The notes below the pieces were generated by a model. That model was given only the letters and a program-made list of their open reading frames with translations. It had not been told where the DNA came from and searched no databases. A stretch of DNA of 51,074 bases from Streptomyces apricus (GTDB taxonomy: Bacteria; Actinomycetota; Actinomycetes; Streptomycetales; Streptomycetaceae). Shown one piece after another: positions 2,332 to 26,026 of the stretch. The stretch lies in the NCBI RefSeq assembly GCF_008369065.1, contig NZ_VDFC01000015.1:159650-210723 (forward strand). The letters are read 5' to 3'. The stretch's first letter is position 1. Each line of letters begins with the position of its first letter. A program made the translations under genes and the position numbers.

Positions 2332-2336
2332 GGGCG

Positions 2337-4041: not shown

Positions 4042-4077
4042 GGTCGTCACCTCCTGGGAACTCATGGACGTACGGGG

Positions 4078-5184: not shown

Positions 5185-5310
5185 GGGAGGGGTGTCCTCT
5201 CGTCGGCCCGGCGGTCACGGTTCTTCAGGTCGTGGCCGGGAGGTCGGCAGGTCTTCGTCGTATCCGCGACGGCGGGCGGGGGGACGGGGCGCGCAGGCAG
5301 TGCGCGTACG

Positions 5311-5415
5311 TCAGCACGCACATCGCGCCACTCCGCCCTGCCCGCTGCCGAGGGCGCCGCTGCCGACGCGGCCGCCCTCCTTCGCGAACGTGGAGTAGAA
5401 GTCGGTGGGAGTCAT
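5311..5415 (-). CDS. 34-codon ORF ending Arg-Cys-Ala-Cys, possible regulatory leader
   Basis: The ATG lies one base after the cysN stop, and the frame ends with Arg-Cys-Ala-Cys then TGA. The rest is Gly/Ser-rich (VGSGALGSGQGG). Just after the stop, GTGCG and CGCAC can pair into a small stem. The gap from cysN to the transporter gene is otherwise long (232 bases) for this operon. Terminal cysteine codons before a structured gap fit a cysteine-sensing leader for the ABC genes, but there is no strong ribosome site. It could be a chance frame. Confidence 0.35.
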   Translation of the reverse strand: MTPTDFYSTFAKEGGRVGSGALGSGQGGVARCAC

Positions 5416-5416
5416 G

Positions 5417-6781: not shown

Positions 6782-6783
6782 GG

Positions 6784-7719
6784 CTAGAAGTACCCCTCGC
6801 GCTTGCGGTCTTCCATCGCGGCCTCGGACATCTTGTCGTCGGCGCGGGTGGCGCCCCGCTCGGTGAGCCGGGAGGCGGCGATCTCGGCGATCACCGCGTC
6901 CAGGGTGGTGGCGTCGGAGTCCACGGCACCCGTGCAGGACATGTCGCCGACCGTGCGGTAGCGCACCAGCCGGGTCTCGGTGTCCTCGCCGTCCTTGGGG
7001 CCGCCCCACTCGCCCGCGGTCAGCCACATGCCGGCCCGCCGGAAGACCTCGCGCTCGTGGGCGAAGTAGATCTCCGGCAGCTCGATGCCCTCGCGGGCGA
7101 TGTACTGCCACACGTCCAGCTCGGTCCAGTTGGAGAGCGGGAAGACGCGCACGTGCTCGCCGGGGGCGTGCCGTCCGTTGTAGAGGTTCCACAGCTCGGG
7201 GCGCTGGCGGCGCGGGTCCCACTGGGAGAACTCGTCGCGCAGCGAGAACACCCGCTCCTTGGCGCGGGCCTTCTCCTCGTCGCGGCGCCCGCCGCCGAAG
7301 ACCGCGTCGAACCGCTCCGCCTGGATCTTCTCCGTCAGCGGCAGGGTCTGCAGCGGGTTGCGCGTCCCGTCGGGGCGCTCGCGCAGGACGCCGCGGTCGA
7401 TGTAGTCCTGCACCGAGGCCACGTGCAGGCGCAGGCCGTGCCGCTCGACCGTGCGGTCGCGGTACTCCAGGACCTCGGGGAAGTTGTGGCCGGTGTCCAC
7501 GTGCAGCAGCGAGAACGGCACCGCGGCGGGTGCGAACGCCTTCAGCGCCAGGTGCAGCATGACGATGGAGTCCTTGCCGCCGGAGAAGAGGATCACCGGC
7601 CGCTCGAACTCGCCCGCCACCTCGCGGAAGATGTGCACCGCCTCGGACTCCAGGGCGTCCAGGTGCGAGAGCGCGTACGGACTGCCGGTCTCCTCGGAGA
7701 CGTCGGCGACGGTCGTCAT
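6784..7719 (-). CDS. cysD: Sulfate adenylyltransferase subunit 2
   Basis: 311 aa. This is the catalytic subunit of ATP sulfurylase, of the adenosine-nucleotide alpha-hydrolase (PP-loop) superfamily. The loop VILFSGGKDSIVMLHLA sits near residue 45, and the family's C-terminal DATTLDAVIAEIA and REGYF end are present. It pairs with CysN to turn sulfate and ATP into APS. The start ATG overlaps the cysC stop by four bases (ATGA), so translation is coupled. Confidence 0.97.
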   Translation of the reverse strand: MTTVADVSEETGSPYALSHLDALESEAVHIFREVAGEFERPVILFSGGKDSIVMLHLALKAFAPAAVPFSLLHVDTGHNFPEVLEYRDRTVERHGLRLHVASVQDYIDRGVLRERPDGTRNPLQTLPLTEKIQAERFDAVFGGGRRDEEKARAKERVFSLRDEFSQWDPRRQRPELWNLYNGRHAPGEHVRVFPLSNWTELDVWQYIAREGIELPEIYFAHEREVFRRAGMWLTAGEWGGPKDGEDTETRLVRYRTVGDMSCTGAVDSDATTLDAVIAEIAASRLTERGATRADDKMSEAAMEDRKREGYF

Positions 7720-8282
7720 GCGAGACCCCTCTCGGCGAGCAGCGCGTACAGCGCCGCCGCGGACTCCTGTACGGACTGGGTGTGCGACTCGATGCGCAGG
7801 TCCGGCGACTCGGGCTCCTCGTACGGGTCGTCGACCCCGGTGAGCCCGGAGATCTCGCCCGCCGCCTGCTTGGCGTACAGGCCCTTCACGTCCCGCTCGC
7901 TGCACACCTCGACCGGGGTGGCGACGTGCACCTCCAGGTACGCGGTGCCGCCGGCCTGGTGGCGCTTGCGCACCGCCTCGCGGCTGTCGGCGTACGGGGC
8001 GATGACCGGCACCAGCGTCTTGACGCCGTTGCGGGAGAGCAGGTCGGCGAGGAAGCCGATGCGCTGGACGTTGGTGTGCCGGTCCTCGCGGCTGAAGCCG
8101 AGGCCCGCCGTCAGGAACGTACGGATCTCGTCGCCGTCGAGCACCTCGACGCGGTGGCCCTCCTCGCGCAGCCGTCCGGCCAGCTCGTACGCGATGGTGG
8201 TCTTGCCGGCGCTCGGCAGACCCGTGAGCCAGATGGTGGCTCCGGTCACGTGGTTCTCCTGGTTCATCGGGGTCGCTGCCAT
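7716..8282 (-). CDS. cysC: Adenylyl-sulfate (APS) kinase
   Basis: 188 aa. It phosphorylates APS to PAPS. The P-loop GLPSAGKTTIA is near residue 20, followed by DGDEIRTFLTAGLGFSREDR and RDVKGLYAKQ, all standard for CysC. I used the ATG at 8282, two bases after the cysH stop; the ATG at 8267 is an alternative five codons in. The next reductase (CysH) looks like an APS rather than PAPS reductase, so the PAPS made here may serve sulfotransferases more than assimilation. Confidence 0.95.
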   Translation of the reverse strand: MAATPMNQENHVTGATIWLTGLPSAGKTTIAYELAGRLREEGHRVEVLDGDEIRTFLTAGLGFSREDRHTNVQRIGFLADLLSRNGVKTLVPVIAPYADSREAVRKRHQAGGTAYLEVHVATPVEVCSERDVKGLYAKQAAGEISGLTGVDDPYEEPESPDLRIESHTQSVQESAAALYALLAERGLA

Positions 8283-8284
8283 GG

Positions 8285-9010
8285 TCAGCCGTGCAGTCCG
8301 CACTCGGTCTTCGCGCTGCCCGCCCAGCGGCCGGCGCGGGCGTCCTCGCCCTCCAGCACGCGGCGGGTGCAGGGGGCGCAGCCGACGGACGGGTAGCCGT
8401 CCATGAGCAGCGGGTTGGTGAGGACGCCGTGTTCGCTCACGTACGCGTCCACGTCGTCCTGCGTCCAGCGGGCGATCGGCGAGACCTTGACCTTGCGGCG
8501 CTTCGCGTCCCAGCCGACGACCGGGGTGTTCGCGCGGGTGGGGGACTCGTCGCGGCGCAGGCCCGTGGCCCAGGCGCGGTACGCGGTCAGGCCCTGCTCC
8601 AGCGGGGCGACCTTCCGCAGCGCGCAGCACAGGTCGGGGTTGCGGTCGTGCAGTTTCGGCCCGTACTCGGCGTCCTGCTCGGCCACGGTCTGCCGCGGGG
8701 TGAGCGTGATGACGTTGACGTCCATCACGGCCTCGACGGCGTCCCGGGTGCCGATGGTCTCGGGGAAGTGGTAGCCGGTGTCGAGGAACACGACGTCCAC
8801 GCCGGGCAGGGCGCGGGACGCGAGGTGGGCGACCACCGCGTCCTCCATCGAGGAGGTCACGCAGAACCGCCGGCCGAACGTGTCCGCGGCCCACTGCAGG
8901 ATCTCCTGGGCGGACGCGTCCTCCAGGTCGCGGCCCGCCTGCTCGGCGAGCTCCTTGAGCTGTGCGTCGGTGTCGGTGTCCGTGTCGGTACCGGTCCGAA
9001 CGGTCGTCAT
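8285..9010 (-). CDS. cysH: Phosphoadenylyl/adenylyl-sulfate reductase, Fe-S APS-reductase type
   Basis: 241 aa. It reduces activated sulfate to sulfite with thioredoxin electrons. The 4Fe-4S ligands typical of APS reductases are present as the pair DLCCAL (near residue 132) and GCAPCTR (near 215), and the catalytic C-terminal ECGLH motif is intact. The ATG at 9010 has GGAGGGGA upstream and overlaps the previous stop (ATGA). The N-terminus carries a short Thr-Asp run (TDTDTDTD) from a hexanucleotide repeat, probably a variable tail. Confidence 0.95.
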   Translation of the reverse strand: MTTVRTGTDTDTDTDAQLKELAEQAGRDLEDASAQEILQWAADTFGRRFCVTSSMEDAVVAHLASRALPGVDVVFLDTGYHFPETIGTRDAVEAVMDVNVITLTPRQTVAEQDAEYGPKLHDRNPDLCCALRKVAPLEQGLTAYRAWATGLRRDESPTRANTPVVGWDAKRRKVKVSPIARWTQDDVDAYVSEHGVLTNPLLMDGYPSVGCAPCTRRVLEGEDARAGRWAGSAKTECGLHG

Positions 9011-9186
9011 ATCTCGTCCCCTCCACCGTCGTTGCGCCGAACCCCGCGGGCCAGCAGCCCGAGGAACTTCAGCTGGAAGGCTCGATTGCACGCCGCGCAT
9101 TCCCACGCGCCGTGCCCCTGCTCGCCCGGACGCAGATCCTCGTCACCGCAGTAGGGACAGTAGAAGGGCGCCGCCCGCTCACTCAT
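9007..9186 (-). CDS. Small zinc-ribbon-like protein of the cys operon (59 aa)
   Basis: 59 aa. Two CxxC pairs, YCPYCGDE at residues 9-16 and ECAACNRA at 29-36, make a compact zinc ribbon (or rubredoxin-like metal site), followed by a short amphipathic tail (FQLKFLGLLARG). AGGAGG lies about 7 bases before the ATG, and both ends overlap neighbours by ATGA, so it is translated with cysH. An equivalent small ORF sits between sulfite reductase and cysH in S. coelicolor, as I recall it. Function is not known to me; an electron-transfer or cluster-handling helper for CysH or the sulfite reductase is a guess. Confidence 0.85.
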   Translation of the reverse strand: MSERAAPFYCPYCGDEDLRPGEQGHGAWECAACNRAFQLKFLGLLARGVRRNDGGGDEI

Positions 9187-9341
9187 GCCAGCGACCTCCT
9201 CTTTTTACGGGCTCGGTTCGCCTCCGGGGCGCTGAAGCCTCCGTCGACGGTCGCCCGTGCTCGACCACTCGTTCCTCGCGGCCTCCGCGCGCGCACCCTT
9301 TCGACGGAGGCGCGCCCCTTCGGCTCACTCGCCCGGCTCAT
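9183..9341 (-). CDS. Very basic 52-aa ORF linking sulfite reductase and the zinc ribbon
   Basis: The frame opens at an ATG overlapping the sulfite reductase stop (ATGA) and closes on a TGA overlapping the next ATG. It encodes an Arg-rich peptide (VRARRPRG, ARKKRRSLA). Its 3' end holds AGGAGG, the ribosome site for the zinc-ribbon gene. No known domain is visible. It may be a real basic peptide, or a translated spacer that keeps ribosomes moving between the genes. Confidence 0.45.
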   Translation of the reverse strand: MSRASEPKGRASVERVRARRPRGTSGRARATVDGGFSAPEANRARKKRRSLA

Positions 9342-11035
9342 GTCAGCGACTCCTCGGAGGCGCGGGTCGCCCAGGCCGCGAAGCGCTCGCCGTCCTCGCG
9401 CTCCTCCTCGAAGCGCTTCAGGACCCGCTCGATGTAGTCGGGCAGTTCCTCCGACGTGACCTTCAGGCCGCGGACCTTGCGGCCGAAGCCGGCCGCGAGT
9501 CCGAGCGCGCCGCCCAGGTGCACCTGGTAGCCCTCGACCTGCTCGCCCTTCGCGTCGAGCACCAGCTGACCCTTGAGACCGATGTCCGCGACCTGGATAC
9601 GGGCGCAGGCGTTCGGGCAGCCGTTGAGGTTGATGGTGATCGGCTCGTCGAACTCGGGGATGCGGCGCTCCAGTTCGTCGATGAGCGCGGCGCCGCGCGC
9701 CTTGGTCTCGACGATGGCGAGCTTGCAGTACTCGATGCCGGTGCAGGCCATCGTGCCGCGCCGGAACGGGGAGGGCCGGGCGGTCAGGTCCAGCGCCTCC
9801 AGCGCCGCCACCAGCGACTCGACCTGCGGCTCCGCGACGTCGAGCACGATCATCTTCTGCTCGACGGTGGTGCGGACCCGGCCCGAGCCGTGCGCCTCGG
9901 CGAGTTCGGCGATCTTCGTGAGCGTGGTGCCGTCGACGCGGCCCACGCGCGGCGCGAACCCCACGTAGAAGCGGCCGTCCTTCTGCCGGTGCACCCCGAC
10001 GTGGTCGCGCCACCGCTGCACGGGCTGGGCCGGCGCGGGCCCGTCGACGAGCTCGCGCTTGAGGTACTCGTCCTGGAGGATCTGCCGGAACTTCTCCGGC
10101 CCCCAGTCGGCGACCAGGAACTTCAGGCGGGCCCGGGTGCGCAGCCGCCGGTAGCCGTAGTCGCGGAAGATGCCGATGACGCCCGCCCAGACGTCGGGCA
10201 CCTCGTCGAGCGGGACCCAGGCGCCCAGCCGTACGCCGATCTTCGGGTTGGTGGACAGCCCGCCGCCGACCCACAGGTCGAAACCGGGGCCGTGCTCGGG
10301 GTGCTCGACCCCGACGAAGGCGACGTCGTTGATCTCGTGGGCCACGTCCAGGAGCGGCGAGCCGGAGATCGCCGTCTTGAACTTGCGGGGCAGGTTGGAG
10401 AACTCCTTGCTGCCGATGTACCTGCGGTGGATCTCGTCGATGGCCGTGGTGCCGTCGATGATCTCGTCCTCGGCGATGCCCGCGACGGGCGAGCCGATGA
10501 TGACGCGGGGCGTGTCGCCGCAGGCCTCGGTCGTGGACAGCCCGACGGCCTCCAGCCGGTTCCAGATCTCCGGCACGTCCTCGATGCGGATCCAGTGCAG
10601 CTGGATGTTCTGCCGGTCCGTGACGTCGGCGGTGCCGCGCGCGAACTCCTGCGAGACCTCGCCGATGACGCGCAGCTGCTCGGTGGTGAGGCGCCCGCCG
10701 TCGATCCGCACCCGCAGCATGAAGTACTTGTCGTCCAGCTCCTCCGGCTCCAGGACCGCGGTCTTGCCGCCGTCGATCCCGGGCTTGCGCTGGGTGTAGA
10801 GGCCCCACCAGCGCATCCGGCCGCGCAGGTCGTTGGGATCGATCGAGTCGAAGCCCCGCTTGGAGTAGATCGTCTCAATGCGTGTCCGCACGTTGAGACC
10901 GTCGTCGTCCTTCTTGAACTGCTCGTTGCCGTTGAGGGGGGTGAAGTGACCCACGGCCCACTGACCCTCGCCGCGGTGACGGCTCACCTTGCGGCGGGGC
11001 GCGGCGGCAGCGGGTTGCTGTGGGGTGTCGGTCAT
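9338..11035 (-). CDS. cysI: Ferredoxin-type sulfite reductase (sirohaem, 4Fe-4S)
   Basis: 565 aa. It reduces sulfite to sulfide with six electrons. The cluster/sirohaem ligands are CTGIEYC (near residue 435) and NGCPNAC (near 477), the C-x5-C and C-x3-C pattern. WWGLYTQRKPG and ACGDTPRVI carry the Tyr and Cys that are cross-linked in the Mycobacterium NirA/SirA branch, so this is probably the ferredoxin-dependent enzyme rather than the NADPH hemoprotein or a nitrite reductase. The ATG at 11035 starts a Gln/Ala-rich tail. It is the first large gene of the operon, 166 bases after a Cys leader peptide. Confidence 0.95.
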   Translation of the reverse strand: MTDTPQQPAAAAPRRKVSRHRGEGQWAVGHFTPLNGNEQFKKDDDGLNVRTRIETIYSKRGFDSIDPNDLRGRMRWWGLYTQRKPGIDGGKTAVLEPEELDDKYFMLRVRIDGGRLTTEQLRVIGEVSQEFARGTADVTDRQNIQLHWIRIEDVPEIWNRLEAVGLSTTEACGDTPRVIIGSPVAGIAEDEIIDGTTAIDEIHRRYIGSKEFSNLPRKFKTAISGSPLLDVAHEINDVAFVGVEHPEHGPGFDLWVGGGLSTNPKIGVRLGAWVPLDEVPDVWAGVIGIFRDYGYRRLRTRARLKFLVADWGPEKFRQILQDEYLKRELVDGPAPAQPVQRWRDHVGVHRQKDGRFYVGFAPRVGRVDGTTLTKIAELAEAHGSGRVRTTVEQKMIVLDVAEPQVESLVAALEALDLTARPSPFRRGTMACTGIEYCKLAIVETKARGAALIDELERRIPEFDEPITINLNGCPNACARIQVADIGLKGQLVLDAKGEQVEGYQVHLGGALGLAAGFGRKVRGLKVTSEELPDYIERVLKRFEEEREDGERFAAWATRASEESLT

Positions 11036-12105: not shown

Positions 12106-13512
12106 TCACTGCACCGCGTCGTCGACCGCCGACAGCGGGACCGCGTACAGCACCCGCTCCGGGATCGCGGGCGGCTTCCACTCGTTGTCCTCGTTCGCCG
12201 CCCACTCGGTGAGCGTCCACAGCTCGCCGGTCTCCTGCCAGTACGACAGCGACTCGGTGTGCTGCCCCCAGCAGGCGTACGAGGTGCCGCCGGACCCGCA
12301 CTGCGCGGCCTTCGCGGCGCTCTCGTCCTGCCGCCACAGGGTGCCGTGCCGGTCGCGGCTGCCCGGCGCGTAGCCGGTGTACCAGTGGGCCTTCTCCGCC
12401 CCGTCCGGCCGGTGCGACAGGACGCCCTGCAGCCCGACGGCCTCCGTCTCGTACGCCTCGTCCGCGTCGGCGAGGCCCCCCGGCCCGGTGTCGAGCAGGC
12501 CGGTGCGGTCGCTCGCGGTGCTGTAGTGGTAGCGCCAGACGCGGGCCGGTTCGGTGCCGCCCGAGCTGAACCACTCGTTCGCGACGAGGCTGTCCGGGGT
12601 CGAGGTGCGGTCCAGGGAGACCGAGGCGAAACAGGGGCGCCCGTCGTTCGTCCGCGCGTCGCAGGCCCCGCCGGTGAGGCTGTACGAGCCCATGGCCGGC
12701 AGGACGTACTGGTAGCCGCGCGCCGACCAGCCGCCGTCGACCCTGCCGACGGCGTCGCTGTTCACGTCGGCCCGCAGGATGCGGTTCATGTCGAAGACGA
12801 ACAGGGCGTTGTGGTGGTCGGCGCCGTTCTTCGCGGTGACGATCAGCTTGTCCTGGTACCAGACCATGCCGCCGATGTGCGAGCGCACGGCGCCGAAGTC
12901 CTTGCCGCCGGACAGCGGGGCGACCAGCAGGACCCAGCGGTACTTGAGGTTCTTCGGGTCGTTCGCGTCGATGAAGGCGACCCGGGCCAGCCCCTTGTCG
13001 GCCGCGGGCTCGTCCGCCTTGTGGTCGTTGTGGGTCCAGCCGGCCAGGATGACCCGGTCGGGGCCCCACCTGCCGTCGTTGTCGGCGTCGCCCGAGGTGG
13101 TCACGGACTGCGGCAGCCACTTCTGCGTGGTGGCGTCCCCGCTGTCCCAGCAGTAGGCGCGGGAGGCGGCCGGCTCCACCGGCAGGGCGGCCGACTCGGT
13201 GGCGGCGCACTGCGCCTTGCCGCGCATCGGGTGGTTGGCGCTCTTGAGGACGTCGTGCACACCGACGGCGCCGCCCATGCCGCTCTGCAGGGTGTCCAGC
13301 GTCGACCCGGCGACCAGGTTCTCGCGCAGCTGGAGCTTGTTCGTCTCGGCGGCCGAGGTGAGGGGCTTCAGGGGGCCGGGGTTGTCGCTGCCGGCGGCCT
13401 GCGAGGTGGTGATGATGGTCGCGGCGGCGGTGAGGCCGAGGGCGGCTGCGGACAGGGCGCCCCGCAGGACACGCCCCTTCTTCCGGCGGCGGTGTCTGCC
13501 TCGGTACGTCAT
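12106..13512 (-). CDS. Secreted protein of unknown function
   Basis: 468 aa. A very basic N-terminus (RGRHRRRKKGRVLRG) then a hydrophobic stretch and a probable cleavage after SQA near residue 39 mark a Sec signal peptide. The mature part has several Cys residues that could form disulfides and repeated segments of the type ADNDGRWGPDRVILAGW and DLGxxRTSTP, suggesting a beta-propeller or similar beta-rich fold. I do not recognise the family. It stands alone between two terminator-like hairpins. Confidence 0.75.
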   Translation of the reverse strand: MTYRGRHRRRKKGRVLRGALSAAALGLTAAATIITTSQAAGSDNPGPLKPLTSAAETNKLQLRENLVAGSTLDTLQSGMGGAVGVHDVLKSANHPMRGKAQCAATESAALPVEPAASRAYCWDSGDATTQKWLPQSVTTSGDADNDGRWGPDRVILAGWTHNDHKADEPAADKGLARVAFIDANDPKNLKYRWVLLVAPLSGGKDFGAVRSHIGGMVWYQDKLIVTAKNGADHHNALFVFDMNRILRADVNSDAVGRVDGGWSARGYQYVLPAMGSYSLTGGACDARTNDGRPCFASVSLDRTSTPDSLVANEWFSSGGTEPARVWRYHYSTASDRTGLLDTGPGGLADADEAYETEAVGLQGVLSHRPDGAEKAHWYTGYAPGSRDRHGTLWRQDESAAKAAQCGSGGTSYACWGQHTESLSYWQETGELWTLTEWAANEDNEWKPPAIPERVLYAVPLSAVDDAVQ

Positions 13513-17015: not shown

Positions 17016-18002
17016 TCAGGCCGGGCGCGAGAGCGCGGCCAGGTCGCCGGAGCCGAGCGTCTCCTCGCCGGACTGGTCCACCGACCAGCCCGGGCTGTGG
17101 ACGGTGTCCAGGTAGCGCTCGCCGAGGTCGGGGGCGATGGCCACCGAGGTCAGGTCGCGCCGCCCGTGCCGGTCCAGCCAGGTGGCCGCCCCGCTCACCA
17201 CCGTGCCGGTGGACCCGCCGAAGAGGAACCCCCGGGCGGCCAGCCGGCGGCAGACGCGGACGGTGTCCGCCTCCTCCACGTGCACCACGTCGTCGACGTA
17301 CGACTCGTCGAGCATGGGCGGACGCACGCCCATGCCGAGCCCGGGGATCAGCCGGGGGCGCGCGGGCCCGCCGAAGGTCACCGAGCCGACGCTGTCCACC
17401 GCGACGATCCGCACCCGGCGCCGCCACTGCCAGAACCAGCGCGCGCAGCCCATCAGGGTGCCGGTCGTGCCGGCGCCCACGAACAGCACGTCCAGGTCCG
17501 GGAAGCGGCGGGCGATGGCCGGCGCCGTGGTGCGGTAGTGCGCCCGCCAGTTGCTGTCGTTGGCGTACTGGTTGAGCCACACGTACCGGTCGTCCGAGGC
17601 GCACAGCGCCCGTACGTACGCGATCCGGGCGCCCAGGAAGCCGCCGTGCAGGGCCGGTTCGTCCACGACGTGGACCACGCTGCCCAGCGCCTCCATCATC
17701 CGCCGGGTGGCCGGATTGCAGCGCGCGTCGGTCACGCACCGGAACCCGTAGCCGCGGCTCGCGGCGATCACGCTCAGCGCCACGCCCAGGTTCCCTGACG
17801 ACGACTCGACCAGGACGGAGCCCGGCCGCAGGGCGCCGCTGCGCTCGGCGGCGTCCACCATCTCGGTGGCCGCCTTCATCTTGATCGACCCGGCGAAGTT
17901 GAACCCCTCGCACTTCAGGAAGAGCGGCAGCTCCATCGCCGCTCGCAGGTCGACGTAGAGCTCGTTCTCGTTGAATTCCGAAGGATCGGAAATGACAGGC
18001 AT
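17016..18002 (-). CDS. sbnA: SbnA-like N-(2-amino-2-carboxyethyl)-L-glutamate synthase
   Basis: 328 aa, PLP enzyme of the cysteine synthase fold. In the SbnA family O-phospho-L-serine and L-glutamate are joined to give ACEGA, the precursor of L-2,3-diaminopropionate. FAGSIKMKAA near residue 38 holds the PLP lysine, SSSGNLGVALS near 71 the substrate/Asn loop, and GAGTTGTLMG near 182 the phosphate loop. An SbnB homologue lies 70 bases upstream on the same strand, which separates it from a plain cysteine synthase, even though a sulfur operon is 6 kb away. Confidence 0.9.
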   Translation of the reverse strand: MPVISDPSEFNENELYVDLRAAMELPLFLKCEGFNFAGSIKMKAATEMVDAAERSGALRPGSVLVESSSGNLGVALSVIAASRGYGFRCVTDARCNPATRRMMEALGSVVHVVDEPALHGGFLGARIAYVRALCASDDRYVWLNQYANDSNWRAHYRTTAPAIARRFPDLDVLFVGAGTTGTLMGCARWFWQWRRRVRIVAVDSVGSVTFGGPARPRLIPGLGMGVRPPMLDESYVDDVVHVEEADTVRVCRRLAARGFLFGGSTGTVVSGAATWLDRHGRRDLTSVAIAPDLGERYLDTVHSPGWSVDQSGEETLGSGDLAALSRPA

Positions 18003-18072
18003 GAGTCCCCCTCGTTCATGCGGCCCGTGTGCGGCGCCGTGCCCGCGTCCCGTGCGGCACGGCGCCCGCCGG

Positions 18073-19155
18073 TCAGCCGTGCCGGCGCAGTTCGTGGAAG
18101 AACCCGTCCACGACGTGCGGCGCGCCCCTGCGGACCACCTCGTCGTGGACGAACTTGCCGACCGCGAGGTCCAGGACCCCGAGGCCGAAGGGCGAGAAGA
18201 CCACCGTCCGGTCGGCCGGTGCGCCCACCCGCCCGGACAGCACGTCGTCCAGCGTGCCGTCGATGAAGTCCCGGCCGCCGGTGAGGCGTTCGGCCAGGTG
18301 CGGCGAGGTCTCCGCCTTCAGGCAGTGCTCGACGTCGTCCACGAAGTTGGCCGAGGCGAGCAGGATCTCGGGCGCCAGGTCGCGCAGCGACACGTGCAGC
18401 ACCAGCGGCGCGTGGTCGAACCAGCCGACGTCGTGGACGTGCGGCTCGCCCGCGACGGTCGCGAACACCAGCAGGTCGCTGGAGCGCACCAGCGACTCGG
18501 CGCTGTCGTGGACGGAGATCCGCCCCTTGGCCCCCGACCGCTCCAGGTACCCGCGGAAGCCGGCCGCGCTGTCCGCGGACAGGTCGTACACGCCGGTCTC
18601 CTCGAACGACCAGCCGGTGGCGGCGAGATGGGTGTGGATGTAGCGGGCGATCAGCCCCGTGCCGACGAACCCGACCCGCACCGGCCGGGCGCGGCCGCGG
18701 CTGAGCCGGTCGGCCGCCAGCGCCGCGGAGGACGCCGTCCGGGTGGCGCTGATGATCGAGCTCTCCAGGCAGGCGAACGGGTAGCCCGTGTCGTGGTCGT
18801 TGAGGATCAGCACCGCCGAGGCGCGCGGCAGCCCGGACGCCGTGTTCGCGGGGAAGCTGGAGACCCACTTGATGCCGTCCACCCGCACGTCCCCGCCGAT
18901 CGACGCCGGCAGCGCGATGATCCGCGACGACGGGCGGTCCGGGAAGCGCAGGAAGTACGACGGCGGGTTCACCGAGTCGCCCGCCCCGTGCAGCCGGTAC
19001 ACCTGCTCGACGAGGTCCGCGATCTCGCGCTCCCGTCCCTCCAGGACCTGCTGGACCTCGGCGCCGGAGACGACGGTGAAGGGCGGAGCGGTGAGCGCCC
19101 CGGTCCCGGGGGCGGACGGTGCGGTCGTGTGCGCGGTGGTGTCCGTGCCGGTCAT
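18073..19155 (-). CDS. sbnB: SbnB-like ACEGA dehydrogenase
   Basis: 360 aa, ornithine cyclodeaminase/mu-crystallin superfamily. In the SbnB family ACEGA is oxidatively hydrolysed with NAD to L-2,3-diaminopropionate and 2-oxoglutarate. KWVSSFPANTASGLPRAS near residue 90 carries the substrate Lys/Arg region, and VRVGFVGTGLIARYIH near 168 is the dinucleotide-binding loop. The start overlaps the oxygenase stop (ATGA). With sbnA it gives a complete two-step Dap pathway, and the 2-oxoglutarate released is the co-substrate of the oxygenase next door. Confidence 0.92.
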   Translation of the reverse strand: MTGTDTTAHTTAPSAPGTGALTAPPFTVVSGAEVQQVLEGREREIADLVEQVYRLHGAGDSVNPPSYFLRFPDRPSSRIIALPASIGGDVRVDGIKWVSSFPANTASGLPRASAVLILNDHDTGYPFACLESSIISATRTASSAALAADRLSRGRARPVRVGFVGTGLIARYIHTHLAATGWSFEETGVYDLSADSAAGFRGYLERSGAKGRISVHDSAESLVRSSDLLVFATVAGEPHVHDVGWFDHAPLVLHVSLRDLAPEILLASANFVDDVEHCLKAETSPHLAERLTGGRDFIDGTLDDVLSGRVGAPADRTVVFSPFGLGVLDLAVGKFVHDEVVRRGAPHVVDGFFHELRRHG

Positions 19156-20165
19156 GCGGTCCTCGTCCCGGTCGTGTCGGTCAGGGGTGCGGGGGCGGCC
19201 GGCCGTACCGGGTCGGCCAGGGCGGCGAGCACCTCGCGCGGGCCCTCGAAGGGCTCCCTGCTGTGCGCGGTGCGGATGTTGTCGACCAGCAGCAGGTCGC
19301 CGGAGCGCCAGGGCTCGCGCACGGTGTGCGCCTCGTACACGGCGTTGATCTCCCGCACGACGTCCTCGCCGATCGGGTCGCCGTTGCCGTGGCGGGTGTT
19401 GAAGGGCAGGCCGTCGGGCCCGTAGACGTCCACCAGGTACTCCCGCACCTCGGGGTCCATCGTCCACTCGTTGAGGAAGGCGATCTGGTTGAACCAGCAG
19501 GGCTGTCCGGTGACCGGGTGGCGCACCACCGCGGACCGGCGCTGGCGGGTGTGCAGCGAGCCGTCGTCCTGCCAGGACGTCTCGATCGCGTGGGCCCGGC
19601 AGTAGCGCTCGACGGCGTCCCGGTCCTCGGTGCCGAAGGACTCGGCGAGGGTCGCCCCGATCTCGTCGTTGTAGGTGCGGGTGAGCAGCCAGCCCTCCCG
19701 CGCGAACCGCTCGGTGAGCGCGCCGGGCAGCGCGCCCAGCACGTCGACGGCGTCGGCGACCGCGGTGGCGCCGCCCCCGGCCGGTGCGTCGAGGCACGCG
19801 AACAGCATCAGGGCGGGGAACTCCAGCGCGTAGCTCAACTCGTGGTGCATGCACATCTGCTGGTTGGGCGGCCACTTCGACGAGGAGTACACGCCGTCCG
19901 CGTACGTGCGCCGGGGCGCGAAGGACTCCCGGTCGGGCATCAGGTCGTCGGCCAGCAGCCGGAAGACGTCCGCGGTGGTGTCCGGGTCGGCCAGGCCCAG
20001 CCCGCGCACCAGCACGCTGCCGTGTCCGGCGACCACGGCGCGCAGCGCGTCGCGGTGCTCGCCCGTCCAGGCCCGCGCGTCCCGCACCGCGTCGGTGCGC
20101 AGGACGGGCGGGCTGCCGGGGCGCAGGTCGAGGTCGGGCAGCTGCGTCCGGGACGTGGACGTCAT
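19152..20165 (-). CDS. TauD/SyrP-like Fe(II)/2-oxoglutarate oxygenase
   Basis: 337 aa. MCMHHELSYALEFP near residue 105 gives the iron His and acidic ligand in the H-x-E form typical of SyrP-like members, and RTAHSREPFEGPREVL near 308 gives the distal His and the 2-oxoglutarate Arg. SyrP-type enzymes hydroxylate the beta-carbon of amino acids, often while bound to an NRPS carrier protein. I used the ATG at 20165 (GAAGGGA upstream) rather than the longer frame to 20285. Between A-T and SbnB genes it could hydroxylate free, carrier-bound or polymerised Dap, or an alternative substrate amino acid. Confidence 0.88.
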   Translation of the reverse strand: MTSTSRTQLPDLDLRPGSPPVLRTDAVRDARAWTGEHRDALRAVVAGHGSVLVRGLGLADPDTTADVFRLLADDLMPDRESFAPRRTYADGVYSSSKWPPNQQMCMHHELSYALEFPALMLFACLDAPAGGGATAVADAVDVLGALPGALTERFAREGWLLTRTYNDEIGATLAESFGTEDRDAVERYCRAHAIETSWQDDGSLHTRQRRSAVVRHPVTGQPCWFNQIAFLNEWTMDPEVREYLVDVYGPDGLPFNTRHGNGDPIGEDVVREINAVYEAHTVREPWRSGDLLLVDNIRTAHSREPFEGPREVLAALADPVRPAAPAPLTDTTGTRTA

Positions 20166-20281
20166 CGGGTGGTTCCCTTCGGTCGTGCGCCGGTCCTCCG
20201 GCGCGCGGGTGTGCGGGTGCTCCCGCGGGTGGTCTTCGGTGCGTTCCGCGGCCGGGGTCCGGCCCCGGCGCCCTGTCCACT

Positions 20282-22621
20282 TCACGAGGCCTCCTGACGT
20301 GCGCCGTCGAGCAGTCGCGCCAGGTCCGCGAGGACCGGGTGGCGCGTGACGTCCTTGAGGGTGACCGCCCGGTCCAGGGCGACCGCGAGCTTCACCGCCG
20401 CGAGCGAGGTGCCGCCGCGGTCAAAGAAGTGGTCGAGGCGGCCGACCCGCTCCACCGGGACGCCCAGCACCCCGGCCCAGGCCGCCGCCAGGCGCCGCTC
20501 GCCCGGCGTGCCCGGCGCGTCCGCGACCGCGCCGTCCGCCGCCCCGCCCGCGTCGAGCTCCTGCGCGAGCGCGGTCAGCTTCTTGCGGTCGGTCTTGCCG
20601 TTGGCGGTCAGCGGCAGCCCCTCGCGCCGATGCACGGCGGACGGCACCATGTACGCGGGCAGCGAGGCGGCCAGCTGCTCCAGCACGGCCGCGGGCGCGA
20701 CGCCGGGGCCGGTGCAGAACGCCACCAGCCGGGTGCCGCCCGCGACCACCACGGCACCGTCCCGGACCCCGGCCACCCGCAGCAGGGCGTTCTCGATCTC
20801 GCCGATCTCGATGCGGAAGCCGCGGATCTTCACCTGGCTGTCCCGCCGGCCCAGGAACTCCAGCTTCCCGTCGGGCAGCCACCGGCCGTGGTCCCCGCTG
20901 CGGTACAGCCGCTCGCCCGGCCGGTACGGGTCCGTGGTGAACGCCGCCTTCGTGCGCTCGGGGTCGTTGACGTACCCGCGGCCGACGCAGACGCCGGAGA
21001 AGACGATCTCGCCGGGCGCGCCGAGCGGTACGGGCGACAGGTGCTCGTCGACCACGTACACCCGCACGTTGGCGACCGGCCGGCCGAGCGGGACCCGGTC
21101 CTGGTCCGGGACCCGGGACATGACCTCGTGGTTGGTGTCGTCGCAGGTCTCGGTCAGCCCGTAGGCGTTGGCCAGCCGGATGCCGGGCTCCGCCGCGAAC
21201 CAGCGCTGGACGAGCTCCTTCTTGACGGCCTCCCCGGTCACCGACACGCAGTGCAGGTCGGGCAGCGCGCGCGGGCGCTGCTCCAGCTCGGCCAGCACCG
21301 CCTCCAGGTACGACGGGACGACCTGGAGCACATTTACCCCGCCCGCCTCGACCGTGTCCACGAACCGGGGCACGTCCAGGATCACCTCCTGCGGGACCAG
21401 CAGGGTGCGGCCGCCGACCAGGAGCGCGGAGACCAGCTGCCACAGCGAGATGTCGAAGCACTGGGGCGCCGTCTGCGCGACGGTCCGCCCCTCGCCGACG
21501 CCCAGGTCCTCGATCTTGGCGAGGACGTGGTTGAGGAATCCGGCGTGCTCGCACATCGCGCCCTTGGGCTCACCCGTGGAGCCCGAGGTGAAGTAGATGT
21601 ACGCGAGCCGGTCCGCGCCGACGGGCACGCCGAGGTCGCCGTCGGCGTGGCCCTCCGCGTAGGCGGTGTCCACGTGCAGGACGCGGGCGCCGGTGTCGGC
21701 CCGGTCGAGCGTGCGGGTGCTGCCGCGCTCGGTCAGCACGAGCCCGCACCGCGCGCGCCGCAGCGTGGCCTCGATGCGCCCGGCCGGGAAGTGCGGCTCG
21801 ACGGGCAGGTAGACGCCGCCCGCCTTGAGGACGGCCAGCACGGCGGCCAGCCAGTCCGGGCCGCGCTCCATGACGACCGCGACGACCTCCTCGGGCCGCA
21901 GCCCGTGGGCGAGCAGCGCCCGCCCGATCCGGTTGGCCCGCGCGTTGAGCTCGCGGTACGTCCACTCCTCGTCGCCGCACACGGCGGCCACCCTGTCGGG
22001 GTGCGCCGCCACCCGCTCCTCGAAGAGCTCGTGGACGCGGCGGTCCGGCAGCTCGCGGTGCGGTCCGGCGAGACTGTTGAGCTGCAAGCGCAGTTCGTCG
22101 TCGCCGAGCAGACCCTGCCGGTCGTGCGCGGCCTCCGGGTCGGCGCCGAGCCGGGCGAGCGCGGTCAGGTGGTAGCCGGCGATCCGGGCGGCGGCACCGG
22201 CGTCCAGGACGTCGGTGCGGTAACGCAGCCGCAGCGTGCGGCCCTCGACGCGCACCAGCAGCGAGGTGTCCTCGGGGACGTCGCCGCCGAACGGGTCGAG
22301 CACGGTCTCGAAGGCGCCCGGTGCGCGGTCCGCCTCCCGCACGGCGGGCGTCCCGGCGGCCTCCCGCACCGCCGGGACCGCCTGGGCGAGCAGGTCGAGC
22401 CACGAACCGGGGCCGACGGTCAGCCGGCGGCGCACCGGAGCCGCGCCCTGCGCGGCGACGTAGCCGGTGACGACCTCGCGCTCACCGGACAGGGCCGCGA
22501 GGACCTTGGCGTGCGCGGCCAGGAGCGCGGACGGCTCCGTCACCAGGTGGTCGGGCAGCGGGACCTCGTACCGCGCCGTGCCCGGCACCGGGTGGGGCGC
22601 CCACCTCGGGATGGTGTCCAT
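20282..22621 (-). CDS. Stand-alone NRPS adenylation-carrier (A-T) protein with condensation-like N-terminus
   Basis: 779 aa. Residues 1-175 resemble the C-terminal half of a condensation domain (LRLRYRTDVLDAGAAARI) without any HHxxxDG motif. The A domain (about 190-690) has A3 YFTSGSTGEPKG, A4 FDISLWQ, A5 NAYGLTETC, A7 YRSGDHGRW and A10 LTANGKTDRKK. The carrier Ser is in FDRGGTSL near 736. Lining up the pocket by eye against GrsA gives D-I-W-Q-S-T-A-D-D-K, acidic enough for a basic side chain. With the neighbouring genes I infer activation of Dap. There is no thioesterase and no other elongation module. Confidence 0.92.
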   Translation of the reverse strand: MDTIPRWAPHPVPGTARYEVPLPDHLVTEPSALLAAHAKVLAALSGEREVVTGYVAAQGAAPVRRRLTVGPGSWLDLLAQAVPAVREAAGTPAVREADRAPGAFETVLDPFGGDVPEDTSLLVRVEGRTLRLRYRTDVLDAGAAARIAGYHLTALARLGADPEAAHDRQGLLGDDELRLQLNSLAGPHRELPDRRVHELFEERVAAHPDRVAAVCGDEEWTYRELNARANRIGRALLAHGLRPEEVVAVVMERGPDWLAAVLAVLKAGGVYLPVEPHFPAGRIEATLRRARCGLVLTERGSTRTLDRADTGARVLHVDTAYAEGHADGDLGVPVGADRLAYIYFTSGSTGEPKGAMCEHAGFLNHVLAKIEDLGVGEGRTVAQTAPQCFDISLWQLVSALLVGGRTLLVPQEVILDVPRFVDTVEAGGVNVLQVVPSYLEAVLAELEQRPRALPDLHCVSVTGEAVKKELVQRWFAAEPGIRLANAYGLTETCDDTNHEVMSRVPDQDRVPLGRPVANVRVYVVDEHLSPVPLGAPGEIVFSGVCVGRGYVNDPERTKAAFTTDPYRPGERLYRSGDHGRWLPDGKLEFLGRRDSQVKIRGFRIEIGEIENALLRVAGVRDGAVVVAGGTRLVAFCTGPGVAPAAVLEQLAASLPAYMVPSAVHRREGLPLTANGKTDRKKLTALAQELDAGGAADGAVADAPGTPGERRLAAAWAGVLGVPVERVGRLDHFFDRGGTSLAAVKLAVALDRAVTLKDVTRHPVLADLARLLDGARQEAS

Positions 22622-22648
22622 TTCTTCTTTCCCCCCTGTGTTCCGTAA

Positions 22649-22672
22649 GAGCTGTGGAGCTGTGGAGCTGTG
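22649..22672. repeat. Three tandem copies of GAGCTGTG
   Basis: A perfect 8-base unit repeated three times, then degenerate copies (GTGTTGTG) to about 22680, in the 66-base gap between the two NRPS genes. The ribosome site of the A-T gene lies downstream of it, so it probably only sets spacing. Confidence 0.8.
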
Positions 22673-22687
22673 GTGTTGTGGTGCCTG

Positions 22688-25183
22688 TCAGGCGCGCCGC
22701 GGTGCGACCGCCGGGTTCCCGCCCCAGTGCGCCCCCGGCGGCACCTCCTCGCCCTTCATCAGGAAGGAGTCGGCGGCGAGCACGGCGGCGTCCCCCATCG
22801 ACGCGCCGTAGTGGACGAGCGCGCCGGTGCCGAGCGTGACGCCGGCCCCGATCACGATGTGGTCGGACTTGAAGGTGCCGTCCTCCTGCGAGTGCGACTG
22901 CACCTTGCTGTGCGCGCCGAGCGTGCAGTCGTCCCCGACGGCGGTGAGCGTGCGCTCGGTGATGTAGGCGCCGTCGTCGAAGACCCGTCGGCCGAGGCGG
23001 ACCCCGAGGAGCCGCCAGACCAGGTTCTTGAACGGGGTGCCGTTGAACACGGCGATGTGCCGGTCGGGAAGCTTCCAGAGCCGTTCCTGGCGCCAGAAGA
23101 GCGGGTCGTAGATCGAGTGCAGCCGCGGCTCCAGCGGACGGAACCGCAGGATCAGCCGCTCCACCAGCACGTAGTAGCCGGTGGTGAAGACGAGACCGGC
23201 GACCAGGGACGCCCCGATCAGCAGGCCGCCGACGGCGTCGTGTTCCCCGTACAGGTCCAGGGCGGCGAATCCGAGGACCGTCAGCGCGAACCAGTCGAAC
23301 CACCGGATGAACAGGAACAGGCCCATCGTGCGCAGGTTGTGGCGGTTCTTCGCGGCGAGCCGGCGGCGCAGCTCGTCGCCCTCCCGCAGGTGGTCGAAGC
23401 GCGTGTCGCGCTCCACGGTCCGCGGGATCTCGAAGGGCGGCGAGCCCAGCAGGCCGACCCCCTCGCGGACCTCCCCGTCCAGCGGCACCATGACCTTCGT
23501 GGCGAGCAGGACGTTCTCGCCCGTGCGTCCGCCCGCCGGGTAGGCGATGTGGTTGCCCAGGAAGCTGTTCGCGCCGATCGTCGCGCGCGAAACCTTGAAC
23601 GACGTGCTGGAGAACTCGGCGTTCATGATCGACAGGCCGTCGGCGACCATCGTGCCGCGGCCGACGGAGGCCAGGAACGGCGTCTCGTGCGCCACCGCCG
23701 TACCGAAGTTGGAGCCGGTCTGCTCGACGTGCGAGAGGTCGTACCCCAGGGCGCGCAGGTAGTGGACGATGTAGGAGCTGTCCCCGCAGAGCCATTTGAA
23801 GAAGTTGGCGTTCGACAGCCGGGCGATCGACCGCTGCACCGAGTAGTGGAAGCCGTGCAGCGGATAGACCCGGTCCGGCTCCAGGAACCGGTCGAGCAGC
23901 CGCGGGACGACGGTCACGACGGCGAAGCCGACCACGACGAACCCCGCGAAGAGCGCGAGCGACAGGGCGAGCGCCTCGGCGTAGAACCGTCCCGACGTGA
24001 GGTGCAGCGTCTCCCGGTCCAGCAGCACGTCCAGCGACGGTGCCACCGTGAGCAGCATGTACGCGCCCCCGACGAGCAGCGGCATGGTGACCAGGAGCGT
24101 CTGGAGCACGGTGGCCAGGCCGTAGCCGAACCGGCGTGCGGTGCTGCCGTGCGCCGGGTCGACCCGGACGTACTCCGTGTCCGTGCGCCGGGCGGGCGAG
24201 CCGTGCCAGTGCTGCCCGGCCGGCACCGTGGCGCCGCCGTACAGGGAGGAGGCGTGCCCCAGCTGGGTCCCGTCCTCCATGGTGGTGCCGATGTCCAGGA
24301 CGGTGTTCTCGCCCACGAACACGTCCCGGCCCAGCGTGACGGGGCCGGTGCGGATGCGCCCGGCGTGCGCCTGGTAGCAGAGGAAGTGCGCGTCCTTGCG
24401 GATCACCGTGTTCGCGCCGACGGTGAACAGGTCGGTGCAGACCGGGACCGTGTGGGAGAGGATCGTGACGCCGCGGCCGATCCTCGCGCCGAGGGCCCGC
24501 AGGTAGAGCACGTAGAGCGGGTTGCCGACGAACAGCACCATCGGGTTCGCGTGCAGCAGCACCTTGACGGTCCAGAAGCGGAAGTAGGCCATGCCCCAGA
24601 CCGGGAACTCGGTCTCCTTCCACCGGCCGACCAGCACCCACTTGGCGACCACCGGCACCGTGCACAGGCCGACGAGGACACCGCCCCCGAAGAGGGCCGA
24701 CCGCAGGTAGACGTCCACGAGGCCGTCGCCGGCCGAGACCCAGTCGTACCCCTGTGCGGTGACGAGCCCGGAGACCAGGCAGTACAGCGCGAACGTCAGG
24801 AACTGCAGCGCCCCGCACAGCACGTACCGTGCGCCGCTGCCCCGCGGGGGCGGCGCGGCCGGTGCCGGGGGCGGTGCGGGCGCCTCCACGGGGACGTCGG
24901 CGAGCGCCGCCGCCAGGCCGCGGATCGTAGGGTGCCCGTACACGTCGCGCATCGACACGGCCGGCAGGTCGGGGTGCTTCCTGACCCGGGCGCAGAAGTG
25001 CGCCATGACCAGGGAATTGGCGCCGAGGTCGTCGAAGAAGTGACTGTCGACGGGGACCTGCTCGACGCGTACGACACCGGCGAGCACCTCCGCGAGGACA
25101 CGTTCGGTCCCGTTCACCGGGTCGCGGGTGGCCGACGGCGGCGCCGGGGCGACGGCCGTGACCTCACCGGGATTTCCCACCAC
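22688..25183 (-). CDS. Pls-type membrane NRPS terminal protein: carrier domain, six helices, three hexapeptide-rich domains
   Basis: 831 aa from a GTG with AAGGAG upstream (second GTG one codon on). Residues 10-85 are a carrier domain with the phosphopantetheine Ser in FDDLGANSL. Then come three pairs of membrane helices (about 118-182, 358-425, 625-675), each followed by a soluble domain with left-handed beta-helix hexapeptide repeats (for example VTLGRDVFVGENTVLDIGTT and VTLGTGALVHYGASMG). This six-helix, three-domain plan is that of the C-terminal part of epsilon-poly-L-lysine synthetase (Pls), which joins side-chain amines to carboxyls without a normal condensation domain. Here that part is a separate polypeptide with its own carrier, first gene of the cluster. 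Confidence 0.9.
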   Translation of the reverse strand: MVGNPGEVTAVAPAPPSATRDPVNGTERVLAEVLAGVVRVEQVPVDSHFFDDLGANSLVMAHFCARVRKHPDLPAVSMRDVYGHPTIRGLAAALADVPVEAPAPPPAPAAPPPRGSGARYVLCGALQFLTFALYCLVSGLVTAQGYDWVSAGDGLVDVYLRSALFGGGVLVGLCTVPVVAKWVLVGRWKETEFPVWGMAYFRFWTVKVLLHANPMVLFVGNPLYVLYLRALGARIGRGVTILSHTVPVCTDLFTVGANTVIRKDAHFLCYQAHAGRIRTGPVTLGRDVFVGENTVLDIGTTMEDGTQLGHASSLYGGATVPAGQHWHGSPARRTDTEYVRVDPAHGSTARRFGYGLATVLQTLLVTMPLLVGGAYMLLTVAPSLDVLLDRETLHLTSGRFYAEALALSLALFAGFVVVGFAVVTVVPRLLDRFLEPDRVYPLHGFHYSVQRSIARLSNANFFKWLCGDSSYIVHYLRALGYDLSHVEQTGSNFGTAVAHETPFLASVGRGTMVADGLSIMNAEFSSTSFKVSRATIGANSFLGNHIAYPAGGRTGENVLLATKVMVPLDGEVREGVGLLGSPPFEIPRTVERDTRFDHLREGDELRRRLAAKNRHNLRTMGLFLFIRWFDWFALTVLGFAALDLYGEHDAVGGLLIGASLVAGLVFTTGYYVLVERLILRFRPLEPRLHSIYDPLFWRQERLWKLPDRHIAVFNGTPFKNLVWRLLGVRLGRRVFDDGAYITERTLTAVGDDCTLGAHSKVQSHSQEDGTFKSDHIVIGAGVTLGTGALVHYGASMGDAAVLAADSFLMKGEEVPPGAHWGGNPAVAPRRA

Positions 25184-26026
25184 TTGATCTCCTTGCTGGC
25201 GATTGCTGCTACTTGTGGACCATTCGGAGTGTTTGTTCCTCGGAGGGGTATACGAAGGATTCCCGCCCGCAGTTTCAATGCGCGCCGGAATTGGTGCCGA
25301 AAGGTTTTCGGGTGAACCGAGTGATTCCAGTGGGACTCCGGTGTGCCGGACGGTGGATGTGGTCCCCGCGGAATTCCTGTTCCGTGGGGAAGTCGTGTGC
25401 GCACGGGAGCGAATGCGCCCAGGGGAGAAGGAGGGCGGCACAGGACGGCCGGGCGGTATGGTGCGTGAGATGGTGAGGTGACGGGAGCGGCCGCGTGGAG
25501 GCGTGCGGAGCAGCACGGCGCGACCCGCACGGTTTCCCTGCGGGTCACGGGTGGCGCGGCTGTGCGGGGCCCGGTCCTGGCCCTGCGGAGTCCCCCCGTG
25601 TCGTGGTGCGACCGGGCCGTCCCCACGTGCCCGGTTGGAATGCAATCCGAATTGTTTCGGCGGGCCCATGAACGGGTCAAGGGCGTTTCGGCCTATGGCT
25701 CCTTATCGCCGTTGCGGACATTGATCGGCGGACCCCTGAATGATTCCGTCCGCACCCGCTGCCGGGGAACTCACCCGTGTGCAGTGCATATGTGATTGAC
25801 TCTTCCACTTATGAAGCGTCAACTATCCGGCCACGGGGGCATGACAAAAAGCAGGTTCGATTTCCCTTGACGATTGCCGCGGAATTGCTGCCGCTTTTCC
25901 GCCGCGTGACGGAACCGGAGGGAGGCACGGCTCCGCAGGCCGGACGCCCGCCGCGCCGGAGCCCCGCCGCCGGGAAGGTGGCACCGGGGGATGAGTGGGA
26001 CCTCGCACGGCGGATACCTTTAGGAC
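25184..26026. other. 843-base divergent intergenic region between the Pls-like and YihY genes
   Basis: No convincing gene. The base composition is less GC-rich than the surroundings, notably about 25630-25870. It must hold the promoters of the minus-strand NRPS cluster and of the plus-strand YihY gene. A 27-base imperfect palindrome sits at 25796-25822. The open frames crossing it show no family resemblance or good ribosome sites. Confidence 0.6.
25796..25822. promoter_or_regulatory. Imperfect 27-bp palindrome, operator candidate
   Basis: The arms read TTGAC-t-CTTC and GAAG-c-GTCAA, with one mismatched pair, around a 7-base centre (CACTTAT). It is AT-rich for this genome and lies in the shared upstream region of the NRPS cluster and the YihY gene. 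No regulator gene is next to it. Confidence 0.45.

Follow-up and report, generated by a model that had tools for sequence, protein, structure and literature searches.

Linear poly-2,3-diaminopropionate is known from Streptomyces albulus (PMC4668381), and a comb-like polymer of 2,3-diaminopropionate (Dap) is cited in PMC10522769. In S. albulus PD-1 the synthetase has an adenylation (A) domain, a carrier (T) domain and a Pls-type terminal body in one chain, whereas the Dap genes, with the SbnA/SbnB-type products NjxA and NjxB, lie elsewhere; the passages of that report that deal with the synthetase mention no oxygenase (PMC4668381). PosA and related cationic homopolymer synthetases are likewise described, in the sections of the two papers on which we draw, as one protein with the A domain in cis (PMC10522769, PMC8225329). 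Their terminal body consists of six helices and three beta-helix domains, their pocket keeps an Asp and a Glu (Glu221 in PosA), and the synthetases of poly-Dap and poly-2,4-diaminobutyrate (poly-Dab) reportedly have Phe at pocket position 2 (PMC10522769). In the case of the poly-D-Dab synthetase PddA, the precursor genes adjoin the synthetase gene (PMC8225329). Here we describe a 51,074-nucleotide stretch of the Streptomyces apricus genome (contig NZ_VDFC01000015.1, positions 159,650 to 210,723; hereafter the window), in which five genes encode a carrier joined to a Pls-terminal membrane body (T-PlsC), an A-T protein, a TauD-like oxygenase, SbnB and SbnA. The array shares the Pls-type body, carrier and SbnA/SbnB-type proteins, and probably the Dap unit, with the PD-1 system, the plan of the terminal body with PosA and the adjacent precursor genes with the pdd case. 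Our reading, to which we give about an even chance (roughly 0.5), is that it encodes a relative of the cationic homo-poly(amino acid) synthetases that is split and charged in trans and would make a short cationic Dap-derived oligomer.

All five genes lie on the minus strand between 17,016 and 25,183, where an earlier note, made from the letters of the window, had placed them (Table 1). Family assignments bear out the parts that the note named, whereas its interpretation is supported in part. T-PlsC scores 774 bits against TIGR02353 (cut-off 423), and Pfam recognizes a PP-binding domain and hexapeptide repeats in it. Six membrane-like segments, arranged in three pairs, emerge from a hydropathy scan, in keeping with the six-helix Pls-terminal protein with its own carrier that the note had described. 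The oxygenase, which the note had called TauD/SyrP-like, carries an HxE...H metal site in a TauD fold in addition to its Pfam match. The Dap pathway, claimed to be complete, is indeed represented by adjacent SbnA and SbnB, both above the NCBIfam equivalog cut-offs (TIGR03945, 376 bits versus 350; TIGR03944, 406 bits versus 327). Pfam finds an A and a T domain in the A-T protein. The note knew of no described cluster split in this way with a hydroxylase, and we too found no split synthetase with an oxygenase in the open-access PubMed Central literature. Searches of that literature for the pocket string DIWQSTADDK, for hydroxy-Dap and for a split synthetase returned nothing relevant. We regard the array as a variant of the known cationic homo-poly(amino acid) synthetases that has no described case in the open-access literature searched.

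Table 1. Coordinates of the five-gene array and associated features in the window, and of the second kind of split array in three other loci
Feature	Location	Strand	Description
T-PlsC gene	25183-22688	minus	831 aa, GTG start; carrier and Pls-terminal membrane body
A-T gene	22621-20282	minus	779 aa; condensation-domain remnant (~residues 1-190), as it appears, adenylation domain and carrier
tauD	20165-19152	minus	337 aa; TauD/SyrP-like Fe(II)/2-oxoglutarate oxygenase (PF02668, 144 bits)
sbnB	19155-18073	minus	360 aa; SbnB-type dehydrogenase of 2,3-diaminopropionate synthesis; ATGA overlap with tauD
sbnA	18002-17016	minus	328 aa; SbnA-type pyridoxal-phosphate-dependent synthase of 2,3-diaminopropionate synthesis
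T-PlsC carrier (T) domain	24902..25099	minus	residues 29-94; PF00550; phosphopantetheine serine S57
843-bp gap upstream of array	25184..26026		likely promoter/leader of the operon
Second split array, L166	5736-12538		
Second split array, L167	5571-12077		
Second split array, L168	38-6144		

The array is conserved as a unit. A scan of genome contigs with T-PlsC returned 292 relatives. We retained the best 80, each of which carries a Streptomyces title. The note had proposed a search for the five-gene neighbourhood in other genomes; it recurs, with the same genes in the same order on one strand, in 75 of these 80 loci, so the association is not due to chance. Four of the remaining loci (L001, L016, L045 and L060) are cut by a contig end, and the fifth (L076) has T-PlsC only. 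The genes are separated by 66, 116, -4 and 70 bases, and because these spacings are short they likely form a single operon. Stretches of the gap upstream of it are 78-90% identical in L001-L003, of which L003 is the array locus of S. tauricus JCM 4837, and an Rfam search of the window, this gap included, returned no match at the gathering score. The A domain and the terminal body reside in separate genes with separate carriers, T-PlsC having a carrier of its own and no A domain. Its S57 is a serine in 80/80 aligned rows with a letter (one row has a gap), and S739 of the A-T carrier is conserved in 77/77 rows with a letter (two rows have gaps). Since both serines are conserved, the second carrier is not a relic; together with the order of T-PlsC followed by A-T in 75 of the 80 loci, this rules out a frameshift or assembly artefact of one gene.

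In a tree of 35 terminal bodies, the T-PlsC proteins of the arrays fall into a 22-row clade (support 100/100) with Pls bodies from Paenarthrobacter, Skermanella and Pseudonocardia, separated by very long branches from the epsilon-poly-lysine type. The Paenarthrobacter and Skermanella synthetases have the pocket DFECLSVVTK, and the Skermanella gene adjoins ectB; the Pseudonocardia pocket is DLETVSTTT. Because Phe at pocket position 2 is the residue reported for poly-Dap and poly-Dab synthetases, we read T-PlsC as a member of a short-chain branch. At 831 residues, it would fall outside the PosA survey, whose similarity network took only sequences of 1100-1800 residues, according to the part of that paper dealing with the network (PMC10522769). 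Among solved structures, the nine sequence hits to the Pls body cover no more than the carrier or short runs of hexapeptides. The S. apricus genome also encodes a second, full-length Pls (L081, G000:C251) with the epsilon-poly-lysine-like pocket DAESIGT. As a competing system within the genome this was set aside: it is the one other full Pls, and the SbnB of the window is the only copy over the cut-off.

A parallel is provided by Pls proteins encoded by Pseudonocardia plasmids (L086, 4622-10143; L161, 8706-13683). Their bodies are 51% identical to that of T-PlsC, the adjoining TauD is 53-56% identical to the one in the window, and an SbnA-like gene lies within ~10 kb (score 238, versus the SbnA cut-off of 350). 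Unlike the array, they have two or three carriers and no canonical A-T protein, and the A domain is either part of the Pls chain itself (L086) or assigned to a short gene next to it (L161), perhaps owing to a frameshift. Both loci lie near cytochrome c biogenesis genes. T-PlsC genes without A-T are found in L141, L142 and L162, with DUF418 membrane genes nearby, and on plasmids CdTB01 (L087) and S. mirabilis pI (L162) they lie near heavy-metal transporters of the cation diffusion facilitator or P-type kind; for the plasmid genes, the context considered is the plasmid itself.

The A domain is of another kind. The closest solved relatives of the A-T protein are canonical modules of nonribosomal peptide synthetases (NRPSs), and it is 60% and 51% identical to NRPS modules of Kitasatospora NBC_00039 and Streptomyces NBC_01351, whereas its identity to three Pls-type A domains is 30-34%. 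With the remaining A domains of that Kitasatospora NRPS cluster it shares a similar 31-35%, so identity alone does not separate the Pls from the NRPS kind. The pocket reads DIWQSTADDK in 78/78 complete rows (another two are truncated) and in 18 of 20 further A-T relatives, the other two having DIWQATCDDK; position 2 is thus Ile, versus the Phe given for the PD-1 synthetase in the code comparison of PMC10522769. The A domain is of canonical NRPS type and not of the Pls kind. The differing pocket and the module identities rule out a simple split of the known poly-Dap synthetase. The earlier note had spoken of a split Pls machine; this holds insofar as the Pls-terminal protein is separate from A-T, but the array is not a Pls cut in two, A-T being NRPS kin. 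The N-terminus of A-T resembles the C-terminal part of a condensation domain and lacks HHxxxDG (a weak Pfam match, with E 0.002 in L019), and thus looks like a condensation-domain remnant. In a quick tree, the array A-T proteins form one clade (SH-aLRT 98), which also includes L138, without T-PlsC nearby.

Most A-T relatives have an additional domain that A-T of the window lacks. Of the 76 relatives whose reading frame is complete to its stop, 60 exceed 1000 residues and end in a thioesterase-like tail (Pfam-checked in L019), whereas 16 do not. Retention of the thioesterase (TE), as well as the occurrence of A-T(-TE) and TauD without T-PlsC in other NRPS clusters, where they probably supply a residue, would fit a route to a small molecule. 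The product of A-T(-TE) and TauD would then be a free, modified amino acid or a short peptide, which T-PlsC would condense once or transfer across the membrane without polymerizing it. We consider this improbable, as the quick tree shows TE-less members dispersed across the array clade, and T-PlsC keeps its carrier serine and many invariant body positions.

The genomic neighbours of A-T kin suggest what the A domain may activate. A-T together with SbnB and SbnA, and with TauD separate or fused, is found inside NRPS clusters in L124, L125, L128, L129 and L130; T-PlsC was not found in these fetched loci, and a small gene family present in them is MbtH by Pfam in L125. In a second set of loci (L088, L131-L133, L135, L136 and L139), A-T-TE modules are accompanied by GHMP kinase, PALP, argininosuccinate-lyase-like and ATP-grasp genes (Pfam-checked in L085, L088 and L132, elsewhere assigned by sequence family), and L132 additionally holds a glutamate-mutase gene. 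These modules resemble A-T of the arrays in their pocket, in the TE that follows the carrier in most array relatives, and in most cases in a TauD relative nearby. They differ in that most have NRPS genes, and no Pls body, as neighbours, and in that kinase/PALP/lyase/ATP-grasp genes take the place of SbnA/SbnB. We take this gene set to be the one that makes 2,3-diaminobutyrate in friulimicin-type lipopeptides. The portions of the gausemycin study that touch on the matter support this link loosely only: another gausemycin cluster is reported there without the cysteine-synthase and lyase genes, yet its product has the same residue (PMC12471526).

The A-T protein shares clade and pocket with A-T proteins beside either Dap- or diaminobutyrate-type genes. 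Because its kin adjoin one or the other gene set, the A domain probably takes vicinal diamino acids, one pocket serving two of them; for the arrays, the genes alongside favour Dap. The presence of the same pocket in the 2,3-diaminobutyrate-type clusters would suit an alternative in which the substrate is 2,3-diaminobutyrate or a non-diamino acid and the Dap from SbnA/SbnB is used elsewhere. We regard it as quite unlikely, given that A-T and TauD have SbnA and SbnB as neighbours in the 75 uncut arrays as well as in the five NRPS clusters named above. Two loci, L126 and L127, have A-T and TauD without SbnA/SbnB, perhaps reflecting another precursor route; in L126 an ABC1-kinase gene and a 3-phosphoglycerate-dehydrogenase-like gene lie beside them.

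SbnA and SbnB make Dap and 2-oxoglutarate. The expression of such an array may already have been recorded in Streptomyces scabies. In the proteomic data of that species, according to the parts of the paper on which we draw, the SbnB homologue C9YUJ1, encoded near sbnA and an NRPS gene, is overproduced with potato microtubers and grouped among proteins for unidentified metabolites, and the nitrite/sulfite reductase C9YUJ7 is named as well (PMC11479980). In the window, a nitrite/sulfite reductase gene (9338-10954) lies six called genes beyond SbnB, which matches the spacing of the two accessions. Judging from this numbering, the C9YUJ1 locus may be the same array locus, and the proteomic result may then be a sign of array expression.

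The oxygenase accompanies the array throughout, being present in each of the 75 uncut arrays. Its metal residues, H107-x-E109 and H301, and R310 are conserved in relatives. The predicted model (pLDDT 85) has At3g21360 as its nearest fold (Z 28.8), the other rows shown having Z scores of 18.6-20.7, and the fold match does not reveal the reaction. More telling are two loci in which A, T and TauD form in-frame fusions, namely L124 (8435-11920; 1161 aa, beside SbnB and SbnA) and L134 (8811-12041; 1076 aa). It is mainly because of these fusions that we place TauD on a carrier-bound unit, and they suggest that its substrate is tethered. SyrP/DdaC-type oxygenases, which we take to share the HxE...H metal motif and to act on carrier-bound substrates, presumably differ in their substrates (Asp, fumaramoyl-Dap), and we know of no Pls body beside them.

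The presence of TauD bears on the possibility that the array makes plain poly-Dap, either unoxidised and beta-linked or comb-like beta-(Dap-Dap), with the two carriers serving main and side chain and TauD acting in later tailoring or elsewhere. Both polymer types have the precedents cited at the outset, T-PlsC lies within a clade holding Dab/Dap-type bodies, and both carriers are kept. Nevertheless, this seems unlikely to us, since TauD is invariably present in uncut arrays, is fused to A-T in two other loci and recurs in a second kind of array described below, and since the known poly-Dap synthetase, from what its report says of it, is a single chain with its Dap genes elsewhere.

The split, trans-charged synthetase that we favour would work as follows. 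SbnA and SbnB would make L-Dap and 2-oxoglutarate in place. A-T, an NRPS module without the catalytic half of the condensation domain, would adenylate Dap and hold it on the S739 carrier, where TauD, which needs 2-oxoglutarate, would oxidise the tethered Dap. The unit would then pass to the S57 carrier of T-PlsC; most relatives would use the thioesterase for this transfer, whereas TE-less lineages, including that of the window, would take a different route. Finally, the membrane body of T-PlsC would join the units iteratively and release a short cationic Dap-derived oligomer.

Loading in trans is supported by a second kind of array. The co-occurrence of T-PlsC with A-T also speaks for the split-synthetase reading, T-PlsC being present in 30/30 A-T-positive genomes and in 0/30 A-T-negative ones. 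There are 46 T-PlsC matches in these genomes, and for 40 of them a script recount places a listed A-T match no more than 5 kb away. Of the other six, those in G416, G401 and G335 belong to the second kind of array, two in G454 are lone genes, and that in G330 is cut by a contig end. The second arrays (L166-L168; Table 1) consist of T-PlsC, TauD, a stand-alone AMP-forming ligase and then a 90-residue protein, which Pfam identifies as a carrier in L166 and L168. The L166 ligase belongs to the exosortase-associated family TIGR03098 (750 bits versus a cut-off of 592), and the ligases of all three loci share one pocket string. T-PlsC and TauD are 54-56% and 67-68% identical to those of the window, respectively, and here too the loading enzyme is in a separate gene. 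The differences are that the ligase and separate carrier replace A-T, that the Pls body of L166 has four carriers, and that no SbnA, SbnB or A-T relative beyond the ligase was seen in the L166-L168 stretches. As T-PlsC and TauD occur with another ligase and carrier, the loading enzyme looks exchangeable; in this small and non-random sample, T-PlsC and TauD look like a constant core with a changeable loading enzyme.

Lone T-PlsC genes, within the stretches inspected, are found in G454 (two), G080 (one), G088 (two) and L076. The first five share their genome with an array, which speaks for loading in trans; likewise, S. himalayensis carries the array locus L028 in addition to the lone L076. A broader proposal, which we put forward only tentatively, is a modular polymer system in which the T-PlsC/TauD core is charged in trans by several loading enzymes and gives oligomers of oxidised units. 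These would be oxidised Dap here, for example as N-acyl-hemiaminal, aldehyde or dehydro-Dap, and the lone T-PlsC proteins would be served by the same enzymes.

Several observations weigh against the split-synthetase reading. The pocket of A-T keeps Asp at position 1 but has Trp at position 3 in all 78 complete rows, and so lacks the Glu kept in the homopolymer synthetases covered in the pocket analysis of PMC10522769. The TE of most A-T relatives could release a free amino acid instead, and the TE-less lineages are without a dedicated transfer enzyme. TauD relatives are separate from A-T and on the opposite strand in L131, L132, L133, L135 and L136; because of this placement and of the TIGR03098-ligase arrays without SbnA/SbnB, TauD may have other units, or the T-PlsC carrier, as its target. 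The beta-hydroxylated Dap that the earlier note had considered is chemically doubtful as long as the beta-amine is free, as it would be a hemiaminal, which tends to lose ammonia. Such a unit would be stable only with an acylated beta-nitrogen, as in a beta-linked chain; an aldehyde or a dehydro-Dap unit is an alternative oxidised unit. In the tree of terminal bodies, the finer grouping of T-PlsC with the Paenarthrobacter/Skermanella pair is weak (93/57). The low number of lone T-PlsC genes weakens one argument for loading in trans. Two counts also call for caution: the 30 A-T-positive genomes in which T-PlsC was sought were the top of the A-T score list and not a random draw, and A-T relatives occur in 120/295 genomes of the genus of the window, with three candidates scored per genome.

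The array is widespread and not rare. Among 200 Streptomycetaceae genomes, 145 have a TIGR02353 match; with five candidates scored in each, 44 contain an A-T relative. T-PlsC adjoins A-T 26 times, in 25 of the 200 genomes (coordinates compared by eye). Three of these adjacencies are those of loci L121-L123; the SbnA gene of L121 is set apart, on the opposite strand. In a phylum sample of 296 genomes, 15 have a TIGR02353 match. Clearly short, A-less terminal bodies are found there in G000, G033 and G040, all belonging to the genus of the window, while G482 and G487 have partial hits only.

The flanks of the array vary between clades (eleven loci examined). An exporter or regulator conserved with the array was considered and rejected, as the commonest other neighbours, whose functions were checked in part, reach just 16 of the 80 loci. 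In the window, sulfur assimilation genes lie near the array (1594-10954, minus strand), with a sulfite/nitrite reductase, an elongation-factor-like GTPase and an NMT1-type ABC binding protein among the products. A 468-residue protein encoded at 12106-13512 on the same strand looks secreted by eye and has no Pfam match at E 1e-5.

The homopolymer synthetases in the papers cited here are single chains, whereas in the array loading (A-T), oxidation (TauD) and polymerisation (T-PlsC) are assigned to separate genes. Owing to this split, the joining of units and their acceptance by the membrane body become directly testable by mixing the parts. The array points to polymers beyond the known list of diamino acids, in a size class left out by the length-filtered survey, and an oxidised polycation of this kind would be a possible antimicrobial or metal-binding product.

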